Counted from the first letter of the stretch, positions 4,222 through 28,901 are shown. The stretch is DNA of 34,965 bases from Selenomonadaceae bacterium (GCA_017444245.1 JAFSXD010000103.1:1-34965), one strand, 5' to 3'. Made by a program: numbers and translations. Notes: a model not told the origin generated them from the sequence alone.

Positions 4222-4261
4222 ATCGATCCATCGATCCATCGATCTAACGATCTATCGATCC
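4222..4261. repeat. Octamer tandem array, 5 x ATCGATC(C/T)
   Basis: Five head-to-tail octamers: ATCGATCC, ATCGATCC, ATCGATCT, AACGATCT, ATCGATCC. They lie between two minus-strand genes, and the last units overlap the 3' end of the FtsZ-like gene. The final codons of that gene (Asp-Arg-stop) come from the repeat itself. Related arrays are at 11557-11588, 20886-20925 and 32951-32966, all reading ATCGATC(C/T) on the + strand. Confidence 0.9.
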
Positions 4262-4935
4262 AATTTTCCGGCAAGGATTGCAACTTTAACTTTGTCGCCA
4301 AGTGTTTCGTCGACAGTCACGCCCCAAATAATTTTTGCGTCTTCGTGCGCCGCCGCTTTAACTTTTTCCAACGCCGCCTTCAACTCCGGCATTGTCATTG
4401 AATCTGCCGCCTTCACGTTCATCAAAATTGCCTGCGCAGATTTTATTTCGTGTCCGTCCAACGCATTCGTTACCGCGTCTTCAATATTTGCGCCCGCGCC
4501 GATAGATGAAACGGCTTTACCGGAATTTTTCAGCGCAGATTTCACGTCCGCAAAATCTAAATTCAAAGTTCCTTCAACGTTCAAGAAGTCGTCGAACGCG
4601 CGAATAACTTGGTAAATTTTTTGGCTGAAATTCTGCGCGGGAAGTTGGACAATCGCATCACTCAAATTTTTATTGTCGGCGGCTTGAGCTTCAGTCACGA
4701 GATAAATTTTCAGCACGGGAAGGCGTGAGAAAAATTTTTCCGCGTAATAAACTTCGCGCCCGTCGGAAATGATGAAAACAACGTCGTCACTTGAAATTTG
4801 CTGAATAGTTTCTTCGCAAGATTTTTTGTCCGTCACTTTAAAAATTTTCAAGCCCTCAATATTTTTCAGCGCGTCCGTCTCAACAGTGATGCTGCCAATG
4901 ACAACCGCAGAAAATTTTACTTTTGATTCTGCCAT
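4252..4935 (-). CDS. FtsZ-like protein lacking the GTP-binding loops
   Basis: 227 residues, against about 350-400 for FtsZ. The C-terminal two thirds follow FtsZ closely. NLDFADVK at 125-132 is the T7 (synergy) loop, then SIGAGANIEDAVTNAL, AQAILMNV and IIWGVTVDETLGDKVKVAI (203-221), matching the FtsZ segment around IIFG.VID..LGD..RVTVIA. The N-terminal part keeps the strand pattern (VKFSAVVIG, DVVFIISDG, LKIYLVTEA) but has neither the glycine-rich T1 loop nor the tubulin signature GGGTGTG; GREVYYA stands at the latter place. It should therefore not bind GTP in the usual way. There is no C-terminal FtsA/ZipA-binding peptide. It is the last gene of the Hsp70 operon, with AAGGGG as ribosome site, and its stop lies in an octamer array. 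Family assignment is by eye; function is unknown. Confidence 0.75.
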   Translation of the reverse strand: MAESKVKFSAVVIGSITVETDALKNIEGLKIFKVTDKKSCEETIQQISSDDVVFIISDGREVYYAEKFFSRLPVLKIYLVTEAQAADNKNLSDAIVQLPAQNFSQKIYQVIRAFDDFLNVEGTLNLDFADVKSALKNSGKAVSSIGAGANIEDAVTNALDGHEIKSAQAILMNVKAADSMTMPELKAALEKVKAAAHEDAKIIWGVTVDETLGDKVKVAILAGKLDR

Positions 4936-4974
4936 GAACTTAACCCCTTTTCTTCAAGCGTCGACTGCAAAAAA

Positions 4975-6543
4975 TTATCTGACGCCCTTTTTAATTTTGA
5001 TTGACTTGTTGACGCCGCTTTTTTCGTCGCGTGCAACAACTTCAAGCGTGCCGCTCTTGTCGTACTTGAACGTGACGTTGATGACGGGAACGCCCGCCGG
5101 CGCAGTGTCTTCAATCTCAAGCAACAAGTCTCCGTAAAATTCATGCGCGTCAATGTCCGCAATGTTTTCGCAGTCTGAACCTGCCTCGTAAATATAAATC
5201 GGTATCGTCGTTTGATCGTCCATCGTCGTGGTGTAAAGTTTCGTTTTTTCGCACGGATAAACGTCACCCTTACGAATAATTTTTGACAAAACTTTGCTCA
5301 CGCCGTCCGACGCCAAAACTTCGACGCCGAGTGAATGCGAAATTATATCTTCAAATTTTTCTTGCGGCTGTTCAGTTTGTTCACTCTGTTCAGTCTGTCC
5401 GCTCTGTTCAAGTTCCGTTTTGACGCCGCTAAAAGTTTCTGCGACAAAACACGCGCCAACCGCAACAAGAGTACCTAAATCAAGTTGCGTGTCCGTGCGC
5501 TTGCCGAAAATATTTTCAACGTCCGCTTTAACTTTCGGAATGTGACAACTGCCGCCCGCAAGAATTACCGTGCCGATTTCTTCCGGTTTAAACTTTCCGC
5601 TTTCGGCGATAAATTTATTTATGCGCGAAGAAATTTTTTCGTACAGCGGCTGACAAATTTCATTGAACTTTTCCCGCGTCAACGTAACGCTGAAGTCATA
5701 ATTTTTTCCGTCATATTGAAAAAGATTCATCAAGTCCGCCGTGTACGTCTCTTGCTCACTCAACGCAATTTTGACATCCTCCGCCGCCTCAAGCACGCGC
5801 CCTTTCATCGAATAATATTCGTTGTACTCCAGCGAAGATTTTTTTTGCGTCGAAAGATCCAATCCCGTTTCGTTCTGAATAATTTCAATGAAGTAGTTGT
5901 AAATCAGCGCGTCGAAATCATCGCCGCCCAATTTTCTGTCGCCGTCAATATCCAGCGCGCGATACGTACGATTTTGTTGATCCGCCTGCAAAACGCTGAT
6001 GTCAAAAGTTCCGCCGCCCAAATCCACGACAAAAATTTTTTCGTCAAGACCAAGTTCATGGACAACCGCAACCGCCGCCGCCATTGGTTCAGTGATAATT
6101 TGCAAGACGTTGAAACCCGCCGCAACGCCCGCTTTTTTCGTCTCGTCCTTTTGGTTCGCCGTGAAGTACGCGGGAACGGTTATGACTGCGTTAATGTTCG
6201 CGTCGTCACCGCAACGAAGTTTTTTTATAATTTGTCGCTTGACTTCCTTCAAAATTTCGGCGGCAACTTTCGTCGGCGTGAAACTTTTTCCGTGAACATT
6301 CCATGTCTTTTCAAAATCCGCCATGTAAGTTTTCGACGAACGAATTACATTCACGGGGTCGATAATTCCGCGTTGCTTCGCCTTCTCTCCGACAAAAATA
6401 TTTTTTTCGTCGTCGACGTACAACACCGAAGGCAACATTTCCCCGCTGCCGGCAAAGCGTATGAAATTTGGTCTGCCGCGTCGCAGGTAACAAGCCAGCG
6501 TGTTCGTCGTGCCTAAATCTATTCCCACAAAAATTTCTTCCAT
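4975..6543 (-). CDS. Hsp70/DnaK-family protein (third Hsp70 of operon)
   Basis: 522 residues. The ATPase domain looks intact: GIDLGTTNT (phosphate 1, residues 7-15), a Lys in RSSKTYM at the place of the catalytic Lys of DnaK, ITVPAYF, TEPMAAAVA, VDLGGGTFDIS (phosphate 2) and VILAGGS (adenosine). Between the nucleotide-binding domain and a beta-type substrate domain lies a Gln/Glu-rich repeat linker (EQSGQTEQSEQTEQPQ, encoded at about 5365-5415) in place of the hydrophobic DnaK linker. The substrate part resumes at DIISHSLGVEV, and the helical lid of DnaK is missing. The ATG abuts the stop of the upstream Hsp70-like gene, with AAGGAA as ribosome site. It is a diverged Hsp70, not the housekeeping DnaK; there is no dnaJ or grpE nearby. 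Confidence 0.88.
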   Translation of the reverse strand: MEEIFVGIDLGTTNTLACYLRRGRPNFIRFAGSGEMLPSVLYVDDEKNIFVGEKAKQRGIIDPVNVIRSSKTYMADFEKTWNVHGKSFTPTKVAAEILKEVKRQIIKKLRCGDDANINAVITVPAYFTANQKDETKKAGVAAGFNVLQIITEPMAAAVAVVHELGLDEKIFVVDLGGGTFDISVLQADQQNRTYRALDIDGDRKLGGDDFDALIYNYFIEIIQNETGLDLSTQKKSSLEYNEYYSMKGRVLEAAEDVKIALSEQETYTADLMNLFQYDGKNYDFSVTLTREKFNEICQPLYEKISSRINKFIAESGKFKPEEIGTVILAGGSCHIPKVKADVENIFGKRTDTQLDLGTLVAVGACFVAETFSGVKTELEQSGQTEQSEQTEQPQEKFEDIISHSLGVEVLASDGVSKVLSKIIRKGDVYPCEKTKLYTTTMDDQTTIPIYIYEAGSDCENIADIDAHEFYGDLLLEIEDTAPAGVPVINVTFKYDKSGTLEVVARDEKSGVNKSIKIKKGVR

Positions 6544-8070
6544 TTAAGTTTCCTTCTTCCCTCTGCCGTGCTCCCTGCCCAAGCTCAAAATTTTTTCTTC
6601 GATGAAAACGATCTGCGCCTTGCCGTCAGCTTTTCTTTCCTCAAAAAATTTCAAGCAAACTTGTCCCGCCGCGTTGATTCGCATTTTGAAAAGAATTGCT
6701 TGCGCCGACGTGTACAGGATTGAATCAAGTTGAACGTCTCCAATGAAAACCGCGCCGCCCTCCGCCGAAATTTCCATTTCGTCACAAAAACTTTGGTACA
6801 GCGAAAGACGCCACTTATTTTTTTTCAACTCGTCCACGAAAATTGGCTTGTACGGCGTCACGAATCCGCGTATTTCATTTCGTTTTATGCAACGCAAAAA
6901 TTTTTCGCCGCGCTGAATGTAAATCCCGCAGGGCACGACAGATTTTGATTTCACGCGCAGATTTTCTTCGTCCGTCAAACGGCGATACTTCACCGCACCG
7001 ATTGCCGCGCCCAACGTCAAATCTTCACGCTCAATTTCTGCGGCGTCAAAAATTTCTGCGCCAAAATAATTTTCTAAAATCTCCAAGAAATAATCCGTTG
7101 ACGAAGTGCCGCCAAAAACTTTTACCGTCGTGACTTCTTCAGGAAAAATTCCCGCGTCGTCAAGCACGCCGTCAAGCAGGGAAATAATTTTTTCCTTCAC
7201 GTCGTCGCACTCAATCGCCGAAAAAATTTCCTGCCGCGTCAATTCAAATTCATGCAACTTTCCTTTGCCGTCAATCAAACTGCCGCCGGAAATTTCTTCC
7301 TCGTCGAAAAAAATTTCTTCCTTCATTTGCCGAATCAATCGTACAAGTTCCGCGCCGAAAATTTTTACTTCTGCCGCGTACTTCGTCGTAAAAATATTTT
7401 TCAAAATCGAATCGTCGACGTTGACGCCGCCGTAATTCAAAGTCGCTGATGAAAGTTGCGTGACGGAAAAAATTTTTGGTGTGCGTTTAATTTGAAAAAG
7501 TGTAGCGTCCAAAGTCGTCGCGCCAAAGTCGAAAATTAAAATAATCTGCGCGGAATCGTTTTGAAAAATTTCTTCGCGGGAAAAAATTTCAGCGAACGGT
7601 TCAGTTACAATCGTCGAAATCGGCACGTCGGCACAAATTGCGGCGCGTCGAATTATTTTTTTTTGCACTTCGGAGAATGCGGCGGGAACGGTAATTGTCA
7701 CGTCAAAATTTTCATCGCGGGCGGCTTGGTTGGAAATGTTGCGCCAAATTTTTGTGAGAATGTCTTTTAGCGCGGCGTCCGCAGAAATTTCATGCTCAAG
7801 ATTTGGAATGAACTTTTTCCAATTTTTTTGAGCAAGTTTCGGCGTCAACCGCAAAATTTTATTGTCAACGTCCGCACTCGTCAACGCGGCATCGCCGATT
7901 TTCGTTTCGACTTCGCCATTGATTTTGTCGTAGAAAATTGCAGACGGCAACGCGAAATTTCCGGCAATGTTCATGTTCAATTTCACGGGCTGAACTCTGC
8001 GGAGTTGCGAAGAAAATTTTACCGCCTTGATGTAGCACGCGCCAAAATCTATGCCAACGTATGTTTTCAC
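6544..8070 (-). CDS. Degenerate Hsp70/actin-fold protein, probable pseudo-ATPase
   Basis: 508 residues with the Hsp70 layout but altered nucleotide-binding motifs. Phosphate 1 reads GIDFGACYIKAV where D-L-G-T-T-N-S is expected. Phosphate 2 reads DFGATTLDA (181-189) where DLGGGTFDV is expected. The adenosine motif reads VFGGTSS. ITVPAAF and TEPFAEIFS still mark the family. The Lys equivalent to DnaK Lys70 cannot be placed with confidence. The C-terminal 130 residues are only weakly like an Hsp70 substrate domain. Translation starts at GTG 8070, whose last bases form the TGA stop of the upstream coiled-coil gene (GTGA overlap), so the two are probably coupled. I infer a structural or regulatory Hsp70-like partner; residual ATP binding is not excluded. 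Confidence 0.8.
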   Translation of the reverse strand: MKTYVGIDFGACYIKAVKFSSQLRRVQPVKLNMNIAGNFALPSAIFYDKINGEVETKIGDAALTSADVDNKILRLTPKLAQKNWKKFIPNLEHEISADAALKDILTKIWRNISNQAARDENFDVTITVPAAFSEVQKKIIRRAAICADVPISTIVTEPFAEIFSREEIFQNDSAQIILIFDFGATTLDATLFQIKRTPKIFSVTQLSSATLNYGGVNVDDSILKNIFTTKYAAEVKIFGAELVRLIRQMKEEIFFDEEEISGGSLIDGKGKLHEFELTRQEIFSAIECDDVKEKIISLLDGVLDDAGIFPEEVTTVKVFGGTSSTDYFLEILENYFGAEIFDAAEIEREDLTLGAAIGAVKYRRLTDEENLRVKSKSVVPCGIYIQRGEKFLRCIKRNEIRGFVTPYKPIFVDELKKNKWRLSLYQSFCDEMEISAEGGAVFIGDVQLDSILYTSAQAILFKMRINAAGQVCLKFFEERKADGKAQIVFIEEKILSLGREHGRGKKET

Positions 8071-9902
8071 TGCGCCGCCCCACCGTCAAACTTCAGCACA
8101 ACCATTTTCCCTTCGGAGAAAAAACTTTCAACGTCGCCGCTCTCCGTCAAATAATCCATATAGTACGGCAAGCGTTCCACTTCGTCAATAACGTTGTCTT
8201 CGTTTTCGTTCGTCGTCTCCTTGCGCGTTACGCTCATCCTGTCAATGTCGCCGGAAGTCATCGGCTCTTTCGGCAAGACTGACGCGGTGTAAACGTGGCA
8301 AGCCGTGAGGTATTCATTAATTTTTTTCAAGAAAGTCATGTAAAATTTTGATTCTTCTGCGCGGGTGTCGTCGTCGAATGCGTCCAAAGTTTCCTGACGC
8401 GCGCCGCGATAAATTGAAATCGGAATCGTCGCCAAGAAAAATTTTGACAGTGTGTTGAAGAAAGCTTCCGTGACTTCTTCGGACAATGCGTCTTCATTAA
8501 ATTTTTTGCGGCGAACTTTGTCCGAAACTTTTTTCAAATTCTGCCGGTAATTTTCTATGATGCGAATGAAACTTTCTTTTTTGGCGTAATCGGAACTTTC
8601 AAGAAACGACGTAATGCCTGACAAGTCGGTAGCGATTTTGAGATTTTTAAAAACTTCGTCGGGATGATTTGAGAAAAAAACTCTGCCCGTCGGCTTGATG
8701 TCAAAATTTTCAATGGTGAGATAATCTTTTTCCTTCAGCGTGTCAAAAAATTTTTCAAACTCGGAAATATTTTTCTGTACGGATTCAATCAAGCCGGCTT
8801 GAGTTTCAACCGTCGTTTTAATTTCGCCCAAAGATTTTTCCTGCGCATCGAATTTATTTTGAACGTCCGCTTTGACTTCGCCTAAAGATTTTTCTATTGC
8901 GTTAAGATTTTCTGAAAGCGTTTCAGCAGAACTTTGCGTGTCCGATTGAGATTTAAACTCCGTGAAAGATTTTTCTTGCGCGTCGAATTTATTTTGAACG
9001 TCCGCTTTGACTTCGCCTAAAGATTTTTCCTGCTCGTCGATATGCCCCTGCAAGTTCGCCAAAAATTTTTTCTGCTCTTCAAAAGTTGCCTGCGTGGAGT
9101 TCATGAAATTTTGTATCGTGGCGAAATTATTTTGCCAACGAATCAACGCGTTATGATGATCCTGCAAAATTTTATTGAACTCGTTGAAATTCTGCGCCAA
9201 ATTTTTCTGCGTATCTTCCAAAGTTTTTTGAGAAGTTTCCAACGCCGCAATTTGTTCGGCAAATTTTGAAACGTCGCCGTCGGCAGTCGTTGCCTGCGGT
9301 TGAGTTTCCAGCGTCGTCACGCGCACAACGAGATTTTGTAAATCGTCGCCAAAATTTTTTACGTTGCCGTCCATGATGTCGACGCCTTCCATGACATTTT
9401 TCAGCGTCTCTTCCAGACTTTGAATCCGCGTTTCAAGTGAATCAAATTGCGCGCTGAAAGTTTGAACGCTGTCAGTGACTGCGGTAATTCTTTCGTCAAA
9501 GCCGCTCAAAATTTCGCTGTAATCCACGCGCTCAAGTTTTTCAATTCGTTTTTGGAAATTCGTATGAACGTTGAGCACGTCGAGTAAAATTCTTTGAAGT
9601 TCGTCAATGCGCGATTCAAGGGCGGGAACTTTTTTTGCAACGTCAGCTTTTTCAACTACAACTAATCTGTCCAAAATTTTTTCTGCGTCGCTCTTCGTTG
9701 CGTACTGTTTTGAAGTCGAACTCAAGTCTTGAACTTTACGGCTAGCGTCGGCGGCAATTTTTTCAATGTTCTTTACTTGGCTTTCAACTTGTTCAGAATT
9801 TTTTTCCACGTTGCCTTGAACTTCGTCAATTCGTTCAGTGAGTTTGCTCCTGCCCCAAATTCCAAGAAGTCCCAAAAGACCGCCTAAGCCTATCATATCC
9901 AT
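8067..9902 (-). CDS. Long coiled-coil protein with hydrophobic N-terminus
   Basis: 611 residues from ATG 9902, which lies ten bases after GGAGG; a TTG three bases earlier is an alternative. The N-terminus MDMIGLGGLLGLLGIWGRS is short, hydrophobic and glycine-rich, like a membrane anchor or amphipathic helix. Residues about 25-400 are an almost continuous run of heptads rich in Glu, Lys, Gln, Asn and Asp, including the duplicated segment KSLGEVKADVQNKFDAQEKS. The last 210 residues form a separate, probably globular domain (around FFSNHPDEVFKNL, FIRIIENYRQNLKKV, FFLATIPISIYRGAR) that I do not recognise. It lies between two Hsp70 genes, 27 bases after the first and overlapping the second. I infer a membrane-attached scaffold for the Hsp70-like proteins. 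Confidence 0.8.
   Translation of the reverse strand: MDMIGLGGLLGLLGIWGRSKLTERIDEVQGNVEKNSEQVESQVKNIEKIAADASRKVQDLSSTSKQYATKSDAEKILDRLVVVEKADVAKKVPALESRIDELQRILLDVLNVHTNFQKRIEKLERVDYSEILSGFDERITAVTDSVQTFSAQFDSLETRIQSLEETLKNVMEGVDIMDGNVKNFGDDLQNLVVRVTTLETQPQATTADGDVSKFAEQIAALETSQKTLEDTQKNLAQNFNEFNKILQDHHNALIRWQNNFATIQNFMNSTQATFEEQKKFLANLQGHIDEQEKSLGEVKADVQNKFDAQEKSFTEFKSQSDTQSSAETLSENLNAIEKSLGEVKADVQNKFDAQEKSLGEIKTTVETQAGLIESVQKNISEFEKFFDTLKEKDYLTIENFDIKPTGRVFFSNHPDEVFKNLKIATDLSGITSFLESSDYAKKESFIRIIENYRQNLKKVSDKVRRKKFNEDALSEEVTEAFFNTLSKFFLATIPISIYRGARQETLDAFDDDTRAEESKFYMTFLKKINEYLTACHVYTASVLPKEPMTSGDIDRMSVTRKETTNENEDNVIDEVERLPYYMDYLTESGDVESFFSEGKMVVLKFDGGAAQ
8830..9029. repeat. 65-bp near-identical direct repeat inside the coiled-coil gene
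   Basis: Bases 8830-8894 and 8965-9029 agree at 63 of 65 positions and are offset by 135 bases, exactly 45 codons. Each encodes a GEVKADVQNKFDAQEKS segment. Recombination between the copies would lengthen or shorten the coiled coil by 45 residues without breaking the frame. Confidence 0.9.
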
Positions 9903-9929
9903 CAAATTTTTTCCTCCCGTTTCAGGCAA

Positions 9930-11510
9930 CTACTCCAAATCACTGCGTTTGGCAAATTTCATGTCGCCTTGAATAATTTTTTCGTCTTGCAAATTTTTCA
10001 GCTCAACGTTTATGTCCAAGCTGCCGTCCACCTGCGCGGTGAAGGTAACTTCAACTTTCACATCGCTTGCCTTCAAATTCGGCGGCAAGTTGTCAATAAT
10101 CAATGAATCAATCTGATCTACGCCTTTGTCGTAACCGTATTTCGCGGCGGGATAATTTTTTATATCGCGTTCGTAGTAATTAATTTCAAGCCGCCGTTGA
10201 TTGTCGTAGGAAAGATAGAACGTCCGCTTGCGCGTGCATGGCAGAGGCTCATCTTCGGGAATAATCATTTGAAATTTTTCAAACTCCATGCCTTCGGCGG
10301 CGGTAATTCCCATTTGCACTGTCGTTACGTGTTTTGTCAACGTGTCAATCTCGGCGTAGCGTCCGGCAAGAATCGTTGCGCCGCGCGAAATTAAAGTTGA
10401 AACGTCGTCGCTGAAAATTATATCTTGACTTTGCAAGCGTTCTTCCAAAATTTTTTTGACAAGCGGCACGTTGGAACTTCCGCCCGCCAAAACAATCCGC
10501 TCGATTTTCTCAACGCCTTTTTCCCGCGCAGATTGGATTGTATTCAAAGTTATTTCAGCGGTTCTGCCGATGTATTCGCCGATAAGATTTTCCAATTCGT
10601 CACGCGTCAAAGAAAATTCAAACGTATCAGATTTTCCGTCCGGCAAAGCGATGTTGAAAAATTCTTCGGCGTTTTCGTCGTCGGACAAATCCTCTTTAAT
10701 TAAATTAGCCGTGCGCCAAATTTCGCTCATGTTCAAACGGTAATTCGCGGCGGAAATTTTATGAAAGTCTTCGTCGAATTCTTCTTCGGTTGCGGGAAAT
10801 TGCGTGCCGAATTTTGAATTGACTTCCGCCAAAATTTTTTCGGCAATTTTTTCCGTCAGCAAATTTCCGCCAAGATGTTTGTCGCCACCCGTCGTAATTT
10901 CTTCAAACGCGCCATGAATTTTTTGAATAACCGAAACGTCGAAAGTTCCTCCGCCGAAATCGTAAACCAAAATGACTTCGTCGGGGCTGTCCGCGTCCTT
11001 TGCGCTTTCGTAAGCAACGGCAGCGGCGGTTGGTTCTGCGGCAAGTTTCACGTTCTCAAGACCGGCGGCAGAGGCGGCGTTTTTCACTGCGCTTTTTTCC
11101 GTCGAACTGAAATTTGCGGGCACTGTGATAACTGCGCGGTCAATGCAACCTACAGCCGCGCCAAATTCTTTGACGAGTTTGCTTTCAATTCCCTGCACGA
11201 TTTTGTTCAGAAAAAGTTTTGCGGCGTCACGGGGGCGCAGGGAAATTTCTTCGCCGTTCTCCGCCAAAATTTCGTAACGTTGCGAATCGCCGATTGTCGT
11301 TTTGAAATTTTCCACGCCCGCCGACGGATTTTGCGTCAAAAGTTTTTTTGCGGTGCTACCGATAAAATATTCGTCCGGACTGCGGAAGTACAACACAGAC
11401 GGAATAATTTCACTTTTATCGTAGCGCAAGGCGCGAATCCTGCCGCTTTTATTCACGTAGGAAACGACGGTGTTAGTCGTACCTAAATCAATTCCAATTT
11501 CTTTTCCCAT
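9930..11510 (-). CDS. Hsp70/DnaK-family protein (first Hsp70 of operon)
   Basis: 526 residues. It has the most canonical ATPase domain of the three: GIDLGTTNTVV (6-16), a Lys in ENFKTTIGD at the DnaK Lys70 position, ITVPANFSS, AAEPTAAAVAYE, YDFGGGTFDVS (about 183-193) and VLAGGSSNVP (about 340-349). The substrate part is short and beta-rich (about residues 390-515), and the alpha-helical lid is missing. The DnaK linker and PLSLG motif are replaced by VTTVQMGITAAEG. The start is ATG 11510, 12 bases after GAGGT, with two heptamer repeats just upstream. The coiled-coil gene ahead ends 60 bases away in an octamer array. A specialised, operon-bound chaperone is inferred; its client is unknown. Confidence 0.9.
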   Translation of the reverse strand: MGKEIGIDLGTTNTVVSYVNKSGRIRALRYDKSEIIPSVLYFRSPDEYFIGSTAKKLLTQNPSAGVENFKTTIGDSQRYEILAENGEEISLRPRDAAKLFLNKIVQGIESKLVKEFGAAVGCIDRAVITVPANFSSTEKSAVKNAASAAGLENVKLAAEPTAAAVAYESAKDADSPDEVILVYDFGGGTFDVSVIQKIHGAFEEITTGGDKHLGGNLLTEKIAEKILAEVNSKFGTQFPATEEEFDEDFHKISAANYRLNMSEIWRTANLIKEDLSDDENAEEFFNIALPDGKSDTFEFSLTRDELENLIGEYIGRTAEITLNTIQSAREKGVEKIERIVLAGGSSNVPLVKKILEERLQSQDIIFSDDVSTLISRGATILAGRYAEIDTLTKHVTTVQMGITAAEGMEFEKFQMIIPEDEPLPCTRKRTFYLSYDNQRRLEINYYERDIKNYPAAKYGYDKGVDQIDSLIIDNLPPNLKASDVKVEVTFTAQVDGSLDINVELKNLQDEKIIQGDMKFAKRSDLE

Positions 11511-11533
11511 AAAAATTTTTTACCTCACAATTT

Positions 11534-11547
11534 AGCTTGTAGCTTGT
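11534..11547. repeat. Heptamer repeat, 2 x AGCTTGT
   Basis: Two copies plus a partial third. On the minus (coding) strand they read CTACA-AGCTACA-AGCTAAA and end just before the GAGGT ribosome site of the first Hsp70 gene. This gap also holds the octamer array at 11557-11588, the only place where both repeat families meet. Confidence 0.75.
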
Positions 11548-11556
11548 AGAAATTCT

Positions 11557-11588
11557 ATCGATCCATCGATCTATCGATCCATCGATCT
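11557..11588. repeat. Octamer tandem array, 4 x ATCGATC(C/T)
   Basis: Four alternating copies: ATCGATCC, ATCGATCT, ATCGATCC, ATCGATCT. The array supplies the last codons of the upstream coiled-coil gene, which ends Ser-Met-Asp-Arg-stop, in the same phase as the end of the FtsZ-like gene (Asp-Arg-stop). Confidence 0.9.
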
Positions 11589-12281
11589 ATTCTCCGCCTG
11601 AAGTTCGACGGTGTACGTCGCGTCTTCTCCAAGTCGCCCGTTAACTGCCTTGAATGCAAAATCAAAAATCCTCAACAAATTTTCAACGTCCTCATCCGGC
11701 GAACCAACCTCAAGCGCATCCGTTATGTACTCGAAAAGCATTTCAAGATGTCCCTGCTGTAACAAATTCGCCAAAAAATTTGTCGGCGTGTCGCCCGTGC
11801 CAAAAATTTCTTGCAACGAAACTTTCACTTCATCAGATAAATTTCTGTACGCTTGATACGCCCGCTCAACCTCCAAATAATTTTCCGCATAATAATTCAG
11901 CCGCGCAGTTTTCTCCGCAAGCTGACGTTTCTTTTCCTCCAAAGAGTCCAGCAATTCCTCAATCTGCGTGCGCGCCGCCTTCAACTTTTCTTCGCGCTTT
12001 TCAATTTCCTCAAATTGCCGTTCCAAATCGCTGTTTAAATCGGAATTTTGCCGCAACAAGTCAATGACTTCAAAATTTTTGTCGGAGATTTCTTTTTCCA
12101 ACTGCGACTTAACGCCCTGCAACTTTTCAATGGAAACTTGAGCATCGCCAAGTTTATTTTGCGATTGGTCGAAATCTCTCTTTGAAACAAAATTTTCCAG
12201 ATTGAACAACATTTTTTGAACGTCGAACAAATTATTTTTGATGACTGCAAGCACTCGTTCCGAAAAAGCTTTATCGTTCAA
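11571..12281 (-). CDS. Small coiled-coil protein, first gene of the Hsp70 operon
   Basis: 236 residues from TTG 12281, which has a strong GGAGGT seven bases upstream. Residues about 35-150 form a coiled coil (LEKEISDKNFEVIDLLRQN, FEEIEKREEKLKAARTQI, EEKKRQLAEKTARL). A C-terminal helical part follows (FLANLLQQGHLEMLFEYI, NLLRIFDFAFKAVNG). There is no signal peptide or membrane segment. A coiled-coil protein directly ahead of an Hsp70 gene recalls GrpE by position and shape, but I see no GrpE sequence signature and do not call it that. Upstream, a TAGAAT-like -10 at 12358-12363 on the minus strand lacks a convincing -35. No CIRCE element is present. The last residues come from the octamer array. 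Confidence 0.72.
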   Translation of the reverse strand: MNDKAFSERVLAVIKNNLFDVQKMLFNLENFVSKRDFDQSQNKLGDAQVSIEKLQGVKSQLEKEISDKNFEVIDLLRQNSDLNSDLERQFEEIEKREEKLKAARTQIEELLDSLEEKKRQLAEKTARLNYYAENYLEVERAYQAYRNLSDEVKVSLQEIFGTGDTPTNFLANLLQQGHLEMLFEYITDALEVGSPDEDVENLLRIFDFAFKAVNGRLGEDATYTVELQAENRSMDR

Positions 12282-22627: not shown

Positions 22628-22642
22628 AAGGAAGTGAGAGAA

Positions 22643-23224
22643 ATGTTGTTGAATGAAGCTTTGAATCGTGACTACGAAATTATCGGAGGCGAAAAATTTA
22701 TGGCACCAATGCCAAGACTTAATCACAGCGGCATAGTTCTGCGTTTAGCCGCAAGAATTTTTAATTACATTGACCTTAATAAGTACGGCTATGTTTTCAC
22801 CGACAATGTTGACGTGCATTTTCCCGACGGAAACCTTCTCGATCCGGATTTGGTTGTTGTCACTAAAGAAAATGAAAAAATCCTTGATTGGGGGGGTGCG
22901 ATTTATGGCGTACCCGACATGGTCGTTGAAGTTTTGTCGCCCTCCACTCGCACGAGAGATTTGACGATTAAGAAAGACATTTACGAATCAAACGGCGTTA
23001 AAGAATATTGGATTGTCGATCCGTACATGAGAACCGTCGACGTTTACATTTTGCGCAACGGCAAGTACGAACTTGACGGCTCTTATACAAAATTTGATTC
23101 TTACGAATGGGAAAATCTTAGCGACAAAGAAAAAGCCGAATACAAGTCCGAGATTAAAGTTTCAATCTTTGAAGATTTATTCATCAAGGTTGACGACATT
23201 TTCTCTTGGGGCTACGAAGACTGA
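22643..23224 (+). CDS. Uma2-family (DUF820) putative nuclease-fold protein, copy 1
   Basis: 193 residues from ATG 22643, eight bases after GGAAG. Uma2 proteins have a PD-(D/E)XK nuclease fold, abundant in cyanobacteria and some Firmicutes, with uncertain function. Here DPDLVVVTKE and GVPDMVVEVLSPSTRTRD hold the acidic residues, followed by KKDIYESNGVKEYWIVDP. The C-terminus (SIFEDLFIKVDDIFSWGY) is almost identical to copy 2. A run of seven G at 22890-22896 (codons for Trp-Gly-Gly) is in frame. It stands at the left edge of the polysaccharide cassette; copies 2 and 3 stand near its right edge. Confidence 0.85.
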   Translation: MLLNEALNRDYEIIGGEKFMAPMPRLNHSGIVLRLAARIFNYIDLNKYGYVFTDNVDVHFPDGNLLDPDLVVVTKENEKILDWGGAIYGVPDMVVEVLSPSTRTRDLTIKKDIYESNGVKEYWIVDPYMRTVDVYILRNGKYELDGSYTKFDSYEWENLSDKEKAEYKSEIKVSIFEDLFIKVDDIFSWGYED

Positions 23225-25483: not shown

Positions 25484-26208
25484 ATGAGTAACATTGCGCT
25501 CGTATTGGGCGGAGGAAGCGGAACAAGGATGCATCAGGATATTCCTAAACAGTTCCTGACAGTAAACGATTGCCCGATAATTATTTACACGTTGGAGGCC
25601 TTTCAGAATCATCCGGAAATTGACGCTATCGCCGTTGTCTGTCTCGATGGTTGGGAAAATGTTTTGAAAGCTTACGCTAGGCAATATGGAATAACAAAGT
25701 TAAACCACGTTTTCAATGGCGGTAACACTGTTCAAGCATCCATCCGCAACGGTGTGTTTGAATTACACGGGGGGGGGTGTACGCTGACGACGATATTGTC
25801 ATAATCCATGACGGCATCCGTCCGATAGTTGACATCGATGTTTTATCAAGCGTAATTGCGACCTGTAAAAAATATGGTAACGGCGTAACTTCTTTACCCT
25901 ACAACGAGCAAATTTTCAGAAAGAAAGATGACATTTGCACGACAGAATATATTGTGCGTGATACTTTGCGCCGCGTTCAAACTCCGCAGGCTTACAAATT
26001 AGGCAAATTATTTTGGGCGTATACCGAAGCTTTCGAAAAGGGAATCGGTATTCACGGATCATCTTACACAAACACAATGATGGTAGACTTGGGCGAAACT
26101 TTATATTTCGCGGCCGGTTCAGAAAAAAATATCAAACTCACTACCATTACGGATATAGAAATTTTTCAATCATTATTGGAGGTCCAAAAACCTAAATGGC
26201 TTAGATAA
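25484..26208 (+). pseudogene. IspD/TarI-like cytidylyltransferase, frameshifted at a G9 run
   Basis: The first part (25484-25804) begins NIALVLGGGSGTRMHQDIPK and runs in frame to a tract of nine G at 25769-25777, then leaves frame and stops. The second part (from 25777) continues with DDDIVIIHDGIRPIVD to KNIKLTTITDIEIF. A tract of ten or seven G would join them into one protein of about 240 residues, the size of the intact paralogue at 26262. All catalytic parts are present across the two pieces. It could be a phase-variable gene caught in the off state, a pseudogene, or a miscounted homopolymer. The ribosome site GGGAGA precedes ATG 25484 properly. Confidence 0.8.
25769..25777. repeat. Homopolymer of nine G inside the cytidylyltransferase gene
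   Basis: A run of nine G in a moderate-GC genome, at the exact point where the reading frame breaks. Gain of one G or loss of two restores the frame. Confidence 0.9.
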
Positions 26209-26212
26209 ATGA

Positions 26213-26256
26213 ACCTCCAATTAGGGAGGTGAATTGCGGTTAATTTTTAGCCGCAA
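26213..26256 (+). promoter_or_regulatory. Two adjacent hairpins around a displaced ribosome-binding site
   Basis: Hairpin 1: ACCTCC (26213-26218) pairs with GGAGGT (26225-26230), which is itself the only good ribosome site ahead of ATG 26262. Hairpin 2: TTGCGGTTAA (26234-26243) pairs with TTAGCCGCAA (26247-26256), ten pairs with one G-T. Unfolded, the ribosome site is 31 bases from the start; with hairpin 2 folded only eight bases remain. No T-run follows, so it is not a terminator. Confidence 0.5.
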
Positions 26257-26261
26257 CATTT

Positions 26262-26975
26262 ATGAGCAACATTGCATTGGTTTTATCCGGCGGTACTGGT
26301 GCCAGAATGCATCAGGATATTCCGAAACAGTTTTTGACGATTAATGAACGTCCTGTCATTATACACACTTTGGAAGTTTTTCAAAAACACCCCGAAATTG
26401 ACGTTATCGCAGTCGCTTGCCTTGAGGGTTGGGAAAATTTCCTTTGGGCTTATGCAAAACAATTCAACATTACCAAATTGAAACACGTTGTACGTGGCGG
26501 TGAGAACTGTCAAGCGTCGTCAAGAATCGGTTTGTACGAACTTGAGAAACATTACAAGGCTGATGATGTTGTTTTGATTCATGACGGTATTCGTCCGCTT
26601 TTGCCCGCCGAAATGATTTCCGATTGCATTATGACGACGCGAAATTACGGCACAGCAATTTGTGTAGTTCCATGCACGGGGACAATGATGGAAACGGAAG
26701 ACGGCGTTACCTCGAAGAGTCATTATCCGCGTGAACATTTAAAGAGCGGTCAAACTCCCAACGGCTTTATGCTCGGGGAAATTTGCGATATTCACAGACG
26801 CGCACTCGAAAAGGGCATTACAAATTCTATCGGTTCTCATACGTTGATGTTGGAACTTGGCAAGACCGTTCGCCTGTATTACGGTTCGGAAAAAAATATT
26901 AAGCTCACTACAGTTGAAGATATTGAAATTTTCAAGGCACTGCTTGTCGCAAAGAAAACCGATTGGTTGAAATAG
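26262..26975 (+). CDS. IspD/TarI-family cytidylyltransferase, intact copy
   Basis: 237 residues. The N-terminal glycine-rich loop LVLSGGTGARMHQDIPKQFL includes the catalytic Arg/Lys positions; VVLIHDGIRPLL and KNIKLTTVEDIEIF are family hallmarks. The family joins CTP to methylerythritol phosphate (IspD), ribitol phosphate (TarI) or xylulose phosphate. Its setting among LicD, GT2, AraD and an SDR favours a surface-glycan precursor over isoprenoid synthesis. It is a tandem paralogue of the frameshifted gene upstream, starting with the same residues, but the middle third has diverged (CTGTMMETEDGVTSKSHYP). ATG 26262 has no close ribosome site; see the hairpins at 26213-26256. Confidence 0.85.
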   Translation: MSNIALVLSGGTGARMHQDIPKQFLTINERPVIIHTLEVFQKHPEIDVIAVACLEGWENFLWAYAKQFNITKLKHVVRGGENCQASSRIGLYELEKHYKADDVVLIHDGIRPLLPAEMISDCIMTTRNYGTAICVVPCTGTMMETEDGVTSKSHYPREHLKSGQTPNGFMLGEICDIHRRALEKGITNSIGSHTLMLELGKTVRLYYGSEKNIKLTTVEDIEIFKALLVAKKTDWLK

Positions 26976-27680: not shown

Positions 27681-27707
27681 AAATTTTTTCGGAAGGAGAT
27701 GAACTCC

Positions 27708-28289
27708 ATGCTTAACGACGCGCTTCTCTATGAATCTTATGAGATTATCAGAGGTGAAAAAATTATGGCACCGTCAGCGGGAGCTTACCATAATAACGTT
27801 ATGGGCGGACTTTATATTCGTATCGGGCTTTATGTTCGTACGCGGAGGAATGGCTATGTTTTCACTGACAGCATGGATGTTCATTTGCCCGACGGAAATT
27901 TGGTCAAGCCTGATTTGACCGTAATTAAATCCGAAAATGCCGCCATAATTAATTGGCAGAAATCAATTAACGGCACGCCCGATATGGTTGTTGAAGTTCT
28001 TTCGCGCTCAACAAAAAATAAAGATTTGACGATTAAAAAAGATATTTACGAAGCCAACGGCGTCAAGGGGTATTGGATTGTCGATCCTTGGGCTAAAAGC
28101 GTTGCGGTTTATCTCCTGCGCGACGGAAAATTTCAATTTGAACACGAATATTTTAAATGCGACGCTGACGAATGGGACAGTTTCGATGAAGAAGAAAAAG
28201 CCGCCTATAAACCCGAAATTAAAGTTTCAATCTTCGACGATTTATTTATCAAGGTCGACGATATTTTTTCTTGGGGCTACGATTTCTAA
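27708..28289 (+). CDS. Uma2-family (DUF820) putative nuclease-fold protein, copy 2
   Basis: 193 residues from ATG 27708, nine bases after AAGGAG. An ATG at 27699 overlaps that site. It has KPDLTVIKSEN, GTPDMVVEVLSRSTKNKD, KKDIYEANGVKGYWIVDP and a C-terminus SIFDDLFIKVDDIFSWGY nearly identical to copy 1. Copy 3 starts 18 bases after its stop. It lies between araD and the SDR gene, inside the polysaccharide cassette rather than beside nucleic-acid genes. Confidence 0.85.
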   Translation: MLNDALLYESYEIIRGEKIMAPSAGAYHNNVMGGLYIRIGLYVRTRRNGYVFTDSMDVHLPDGNLVKPDLTVIKSENAAIINWQKSINGTPDMVVEVLSRSTKNKDLTIKKDIYEANGVKGYWIVDPWAKSVAVYLLRDGKFQFEHEYFKCDADEWDSFDEEEKAAYKPEIKVSIFDDLFIKVDDIFSWGYDF

Positions 28290-28307: not shown

Positions 28308-28901
28308 ATGCTTAACGACGCGCTTTTCTATAATCTTTACGAAATTATTGAGGGGGAAGAATTTATGGCACCTGCAGCACCGCTTGAACACAGCAGTTTT
28401 ATTGTTGAACTTGCGACTACGATTAAACTTTATTTGCGCCGCAATAATAGCGGCTACGTTTTTCCTGATGACGTTGACGTTCATTTGCCGGACGGAAATT
28501 TTTTCAAGCCCGATTTGGTCGTTGTGACGAAAGAAAATGCGGCAATTCTCAATCGTCGAAATGCAATTTACGGCGTCCCCGACATGGTTGTTGAAGTTCT
28601 TTCGCGTTCGACTAAAAAACGTGACCTTACCGTAAAAAAAGATGCTTATGAAAAAAACGGCGTCAAGGAATATTGGATTGTCGATCCGCTCTATCAAAGT
28701 ATCGACGTTTACATTTTGCGCGACGGAAAATTTCAACTCGACGGCGAATACACCCACTACGAAGAAGACGACGTCGAATGGGTTCATATGTCCGAAGAAG
28801 ATAAAGCCGCCGTTAAATCGGAAATAACTTTGTCGATTTTCCCCGACCTCACAATTAAACTTAGTGAAATTTTTGTTTGGGCAAAAGATTTTGGATATTA
28901 G
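28308..28901 (+). CDS. Uma2-family (DUF820) putative nuclease-fold protein, copy 3
   Basis: 197 residues, ATG nine bases after GGAG. Shares its first residues MLNDAL with copy 2. KPDLVVVTKEN, GVPDMVVEVLSRSTKKRD and KKDAYEKNGVKEYWIVDP match the family. The end has diverged (SIFPDLTIKLSEIFVWAKD). The stop is eight bases before the SDR start, so it is transcribed with it. Confidence 0.85.
   Translation: MLNDALFYNLYEIIEGEEFMAPAAPLEHSSFIVELATTIKLYLRRNNSGYVFPDDVDVHLPDGNFFKPDLVVVTKENAAILNRRNAIYGVPDMVVEVLSRSTKKRDLTVKKDAYEKNGVKEYWIVDPLYQSIDVYILRDGKFQLDGEYTHYEEDDVEWVHMSEEDKAAVKSEITLSIFPDLTIKLSEIFVWAKDFGY

Follow-up and report, generated by a model that had tools for sequence, protein, structure and literature searches.

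What task is served by an operon that encodes three Hsp70 proteins without lids, two coiled-coil proteins, and a shortened relative of FtsZ? The question is raised by a 34,965-nucleotide stretch of DNA from Selenomonadaceae bacterium (GCA_017444245.1, JAFSXD010000103.1:1-34965; called the window here, at its full length), which is one contig of a 1.64-Mb metagenome-assembled genome (MAG) that is ~77% complete. The main new fact is the origin of this module in an injector-type locus, drawn from the conserved gene order flanking injector genes in relatives and from the nesting of the HspA tree. With a probability of about 0.5, the operon would be the chaperone module of a contractile-injection-type (type VI secretion system [T6SS]-like) locus, detached from its injector and now working without it on a new client.

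A sequence-only reading of the window had described six tightly packed minus-strand genes, and this arrangement was confirmed. From position 12281 to 4252, the order is CC236, HspA, CC620, HspB, HspC, and FtsZ-like, with successive intergenic distances of 60, 0, -4, 0, and 39 bases:

CC236, 11571..12281, minus strand: coiled-coil protein of 236 amino acids (aa), gene 1
HspA, 9930..11510, minus strand: lidless Hsp70 of 526 aa, after a 60-base gap from CC236
CC620, 8067..9929, minus strand: protein of 611 to 620 aa, abutting HspA; the likely start gives 611 aa
CC620 C-terminal domain, 8070..8711, minus strand: AlphaFold2 model with a pLDDT of 92
HspB, 6544..8070, minus strand: pseudo-Hsp70 of 508 aa, with a 4-base overlap with CC620
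HspC, 4975..6543, minus strand: lidless Hsp70 of 522 aa, abutting HspB
FtsZ-like, 4252..4935, minus strand: shortened FtsZ of 227 aa, after a 39-base gap from HspC

The genus of the window is most likely GTDB Quinella, whose members are giant rumen bacteria, among the largest, and still uncultured. This assignment follows from G031 (L133), which belongs to the genus group of the window and matches Quinella sp. 1Q5 (L165), and from the GTDB placement of Quinella bins in Selenomonadaceae (PMC9585023). Codon comparison with orthologues gave dN/dS values of 0.03 to 0.36 in five of the six genes (CC620 was left out), namely, 0.03 to 0.09 for HspA and HspC, 0.07 to 0.18 for CC236, 0.17 to 0.25 for HspB, and 0.23 to 0.36 for FtsZ-like, with synonymous sites close to saturation for many pairs. 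These five genes, including HspB and FtsZ-like, are maintained by selection.

Injection-type loci in relatives

Of 66 genomes in the genus, 25 encoded HspA (E <= 1e-60), and G002 and G052 had two copies each. The window type, with 84 to 88% identity to the window HspA, occurred in six genomes: that of the window (G000), G002, G011, G023, G026, and G052. In 13 further Quinella genomes, and likewise in the second copies of G052 and G002 (the latter on a contig cut inside g436), VgrG, g436, and g215 are found immediately upstream of the module. The full locus, as in Quinella G034, runs from a CC236-like gene through a 1010- to 1033-aa Hsp70-like protein, a DUF4280/AHH effector, a putative sheath, an Hcp-like gene, VgrG, g436, g215, HspA, g251, the coiled-coil (CC) gene, HspB, in places a further CC gene, HspC with a von Willebrand factor A (VWA) domain, and a SrfB-like gene to g270. 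CC236 of the window is homologous (5e-45) to the coiled-coil gene that opens this locus (L089:7483-8301), and g251, which adjoins the coiled-coil gene in injector loci, is a paralogue of the CC620 C-terminal domain.

A same-order module in an injection-type locus was also found in a second Selenomonadaceae genus, in G111 (a complete genome from another Negativicutes family, with the entire set ordered as in G034), and in a Desulfovibrionaceae MAG. The contig assigned to the last (L157, JAFTDR010000318.1) holds a nearly complete injector/Hsp70 locus in the same order along its length, which may reflect gene transfer or mis-binning. Other genomes contained partial or variant forms of the full locus. 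A probe with the CC620 domain matched 28 of 380 genomes of the class (26 in the genus, G157, and G111) and none outside the class in a draw of 398 genomes of the phylum.

The identity of VgrG in these loci is secure from its sequence matches, with Phage_base_V in 11 of 11 members and a profile match of 2.7e-16 to a T6SS VgrG. The spike-side family contained DUF4280 in 8 of 10 members and an AHH nuclease domain in 6 of 10, and the Hcp-like tube gene gave a weak match only. The putative sheath was not found in the phage collection. T6SS-type contractile injectors recycle their sheath with AAA+ ATPases (ClpV/ClpB). The relatives' loci resemble such systems in that the module shares its locus with genes for VgrG, an Hcp-like protein, DUF4280/AHH, and a putative sheath, but no ClpV-type AAA+ gene was noticed on reading the full loci, and sequence comparison detected no match between the putative sheath and known sheaths. 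The window differs further, since no spike, tube, or sheath gene (VgrG, DUF4280/AHH, Hcp-like, or putative sheath) lies beside its operon; G000, at 77% completeness, yielded no related sheath gene.

Two other known systems share parts of this arrangement. As in SrfABC, the module in injector loci is followed by a large protein that is Hsp70/actin-fold-like and matches SrfB weakly (0.0064), but the match is below the curated cutoff, and the SrfB-like gene is absent from the window operon. An alignment of SrfB-like proteins in which one row was erroneous, being a PP2C-like protein, was set aside. CnuD of CoCoNuT (PMC11090510) likewise combines Hsp70-like nucleotide- and substrate-binding units with coiled coils, and some CoCoNuT operons include VWA proteins, whereas the loci described here have three Hsp70s, an injector setting, and no McrB/McrC-type genes seen. 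Membership in a defense system was considered and rejected, as PADLOC returned just the candidate model PDC-M61B, overlapping the Hsp70 part, and coiled-coil noise. A second injector-like set was also observed (L102:9972-18232, L103, L105, L108, and L109). It comprises a sheath-like protein of divergent sequence (~26% identity), in most cases a pair of Hcp-like genes, and what read as one DnaJ-like protein and two each of the FHA-like and PP2C-like kinds; a SrfB-like protein follows this set in L103, L105, L108, and L109.

In an HspA tree of 29 proteins and two outgroups (G006, with a split HspA and the arrangement of the second type described below, was left out), the six window-type rows grouped as a single clade (100/100), and its sister group was four injector-linked Quinella rows (95/97). 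A second injector-less type, represented by four rows, made up another clade (100/100) within injector-linked rows, and the deepest ingroup rows were all injector linked. As CC236, HspA, CC, HspB, and HspC of the window keep the order of the full locus, their arrangement is best read as a loss of the injector genes that stood between and behind them and not as a new gathering of genes; the second clade lost the injector independently of the window clade. The second type occurs in G004, G006, G019, G035, and G044, none of which had a match to the putative-sheath family, so the module can exist apart from this injector. The VWA domain is missing from HspC in both injector-less types: HspC is 516 to 568 aa long in the window clade, 511 to 513 aa in the second clade, and ~670 to 730 aa, with its C-terminal VWA domain, in most injector loci.

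The possibility that the genes are scattered in related species was borne out for FtsZ-like (G002 and G023) and HspC (G023) and not for the block CC236-HspA-CC620-HspB, which is intact in G000, G002, G011, G023, and G052, with contig breaks inside it in G026. HspC comes next in G000, G002, G026, and G052, stands at a contig start in G011, and lies elsewhere in G023.

Components of the module

The sequence-only reading had recognized three lidless Hsp70s, one of them degenerate, and this held. Pfam HSP70 (PF00012) matched HspA (1e-61), HspB (1e-16), and HspC (1.5e-85), with coverage ending at ~480 to 500 of the 599 model positions (~493 to 498 in HspA and HspC), so that the proteins have the substrate domain's beta part but no lid. 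HspA and HspC retain the phosphate 1, K70, E171, phosphate 2, and adenosine motifs; the T199 equivalent is altered to K in HspA and R in HspC. Neither has a helical lid or the DVLLLD linker, as had been noted beforehand, and by reading the linker region differs (EDIISHSLG in HspC). HspB is, by its motifs, a conserved pseudo-Hsp70 that does not keep the Hsp70 set of nucleotide-binding motifs: the phosphate 1 motif DLGTTN is replaced by a conserved GxDFGAC, and the K70 equivalent is lost from the window copy. HspB had no match in the plasmid collection.

CC620 consists of an N-terminal Gly/Leu-rich hydrophobic stretch, a long coiled coil, and a C-terminal domain with helical and beta parts. The N-terminal stretch, a possible membrane anchor, is conserved across the window clade and also among its nearest injector-linked relatives, in three out of four. 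The C-terminal domain resembled GrpE structures (4ani_A, Z of 7.1; 1dkg_B, 6.8; 9a81_A and 9bls_B, 6.5; all under the tool's noise level for helical proteins) across both the helical bundle and the beta part, and GrpE structures were among the best second-look matches. Foldseek alone gave no match to this domain at E <= 0.001, a PDB profile search gave nothing convincing, and PF01025 (GrpE) was absent from the Pfam matches of the window proteins. A GrpE-like nature of the predicted fold is thus suggestive, not proven. The housekeeping grpE and dnaK are on a separate contig (C82); an earlier remark that grpE is missing here is doubtful, in that CC620 may end in a GrpE-like fold. Another gene pair, encoding an Hsp70 of ~485 to 490 aa and an adjoining 318- to 360-aa protein matching GrpE, was observed in Quinella (L207, L208, L210, and L212).

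Compared with DnaK-GrpE, the module shares an Hsp70 nucleotide-binding domain with intact motifs (HspA and HspC), the beta part of the substrate domain, and possibly a partner with a GrpE-like predicted fold. It differs in having no lid, an altered linker and T199 equivalent, three distinct Hsp70s including a pseudo-Hsp70, the exchange-factor-like domain carried by a long coiled coil whose N terminus is hydrophobic, and an operon without DnaJ.

FtsZ-like matched FtsZ_C alone in Pfam (1.3e-13). A stray C-terminal domain was ruled out, because the structure model (pLDDT 86) aligned with solved FtsZ along the whole protein (Z of ~25, at least 220 residues). Alignment with the genome's own FtsZ showed that the T7-type loop (NLDFADVK) is retained and that the tubulin signature GGGTGTG and the GTP pocket are absent; the protein is ~80 residues shorter and lacks the C-terminal tail. 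The proposed tubulin-fold subunit, with no GTP site, is unlikely to polymerize as FtsZ does. Quinella genomes mostly had two to six FtsZ C-terminal domain matches, versus one or two in other families of the class, and several encode a short FtsZ-like protein beside full-length FtsZ (L045, L048, and L055).

Elsewhere in the window, two neighboring, similar IspD-like reading frames (25484-26975) include a first copy split into two overlapping frames (25484-25804 and 25777-26208), which looks like a tandem copy broken through a frameshift. Three alike proteins of ~196 aa resembling Uma2-type proteins are encoded at 22634-23224, 27699-28289, and 28308-28901.

Possible roles of the detached module

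Several points weigh against a chaperone module freed from its injector. The 754-aa putative sheath was named from position and size alone, and neither PDB nor Pfam gave a match to it; in the HspA tree, the placement of the root is weak, with forks near it open; and the genomes are mostly fragmented MAGs. The likeness of CC620 to GrpE, at a Z of ~7, falls within what the tool treats as noise for helical bundles, and proof of kinship by profile failed (hhalign P of 0.06 to 0.07, GrpE ninth of 33 families, not significant), leaving a suggestion to which only the Hsp70 neighbors give weight. FtsZ-like adjoins HspC only in G000 and G026, and four of the six window-clade genomes (G002, G011, G026, and G052) carry a putative-sheath gene on other contigs.

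Because of this last point, the module may still serve an injector encoded elsewhere, acting in trans as an additional chaperone set. G052, where a full locus that includes its own Hsp70 set exists alongside the window-type module, is consistent with such a role. That it is nevertheless unlikely is argued by the HspA/B/C-VWA set already present in the full loci of such genomes, by G023 (94% complete), whose only sheath gene is of the divergent second type, and by G000, where none was found at 77% completeness; the second clade, in genomes without this sheath family, and the loss of VWA in both clades point the same way.

A function of the set in division or the envelope, in which FtsZ-like and the Hsp70s would work as parts of one assembly, had been proposed from the window; it is not supported and is improbable. 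FtsZ-like of the window type (at least 59% identity, with copies at 60 to 65%) was found in four of the six window-type genomes (G000, G002, G023, and G026) and in none of the 60 others of the genus, a co-occurrence whose chance would be ~2e-5 under independence of the genomes, an assumption that does not hold. The retained T7 loop, the hydrophobic N terminus of CC620, and a genus with several FtsZ homologues and large, oval cells (mean, 4.2 by 2.8 um; PMC9585023) would fit as well. However, adjacency to HspC in just two of four genomes makes the division link weak; FtsZ-like is on other contigs in G002 and G023, short FtsZ-like proteins also occur in Quinella genomes without this module, and the likely ancestral setting, and wider home, of the module is the injection-type locus. 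It is similarly hard to credit that FtsZ-like is a chance neighbor of a general stress-proteostasis Hsp70 set formed by the other five genes, for although its linkage is loose (a WYL regulator separates HspC from FtsZ-like in G026, and a WYL-FtsZ-like pair stands apart from the module in G002), the patchy presence (25 of 66 genomes), the specific gene order in common with injector loci, the lidless Hsp70s, and the conserved pseudo-Hsp70 argue otherwise.

Under the reading of a module detached from its injector, HspA and HspC would be ATP-driven lidless Hsp70s, with HspB as their noncatalytic partner, and CC620 would be a membrane-tethered coiled-coil scaffold whose GrpE-like end exchanges Hsp70 nucleotide. 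As part of the injector, such a machine would assemble or recycle the polymer of tube or sheath, as AAA+ ClpV does in the classical T6SS; in the window clade, it would act on a new client, without neighboring injector genes and without the VWA domain. The pseudo-FtsZ could be an adaptor that, judged from motif anatomy alone, may cap or bind FtsZ filaments through its T7 (bottom) face while lacking a GTP pocket. The dedicated assembly envisaged at the outset, of actin-fold (Hsp70) ATPases and a long scaffold, is supported and is conserved. No described system with this gene set appeared in the literature searched, which likewise contained no description of Hsp70 modules within loci for contractile injectors (its coverage leaves out most subscription papers and preprints); the terms "hsp70" and "injection" are absent from the main text of PMC9585023.

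The findings suggest that the assembly engine of a weapon was re-used for another task. A more far-reaching and rather doubtful version would have a new class of Hsp70 polymer-remodeling machine (two lidless ATPases together with a pseudo-Hsp70 and a GrpE-like coiled coil tethered to the membrane) replace ClpV in an undescribed injector and be freed at least two times, once recruiting a GTPase-dead FtsZ adaptor onto FtsZ filaments of giant bacteria. An injector locus with a multi-Hsp70 module in the place of an AAA+ ATPase, along with two independent escapes of that module, would provide a case, open to testing, in which the machinery of a weapon took up work inside the cell.
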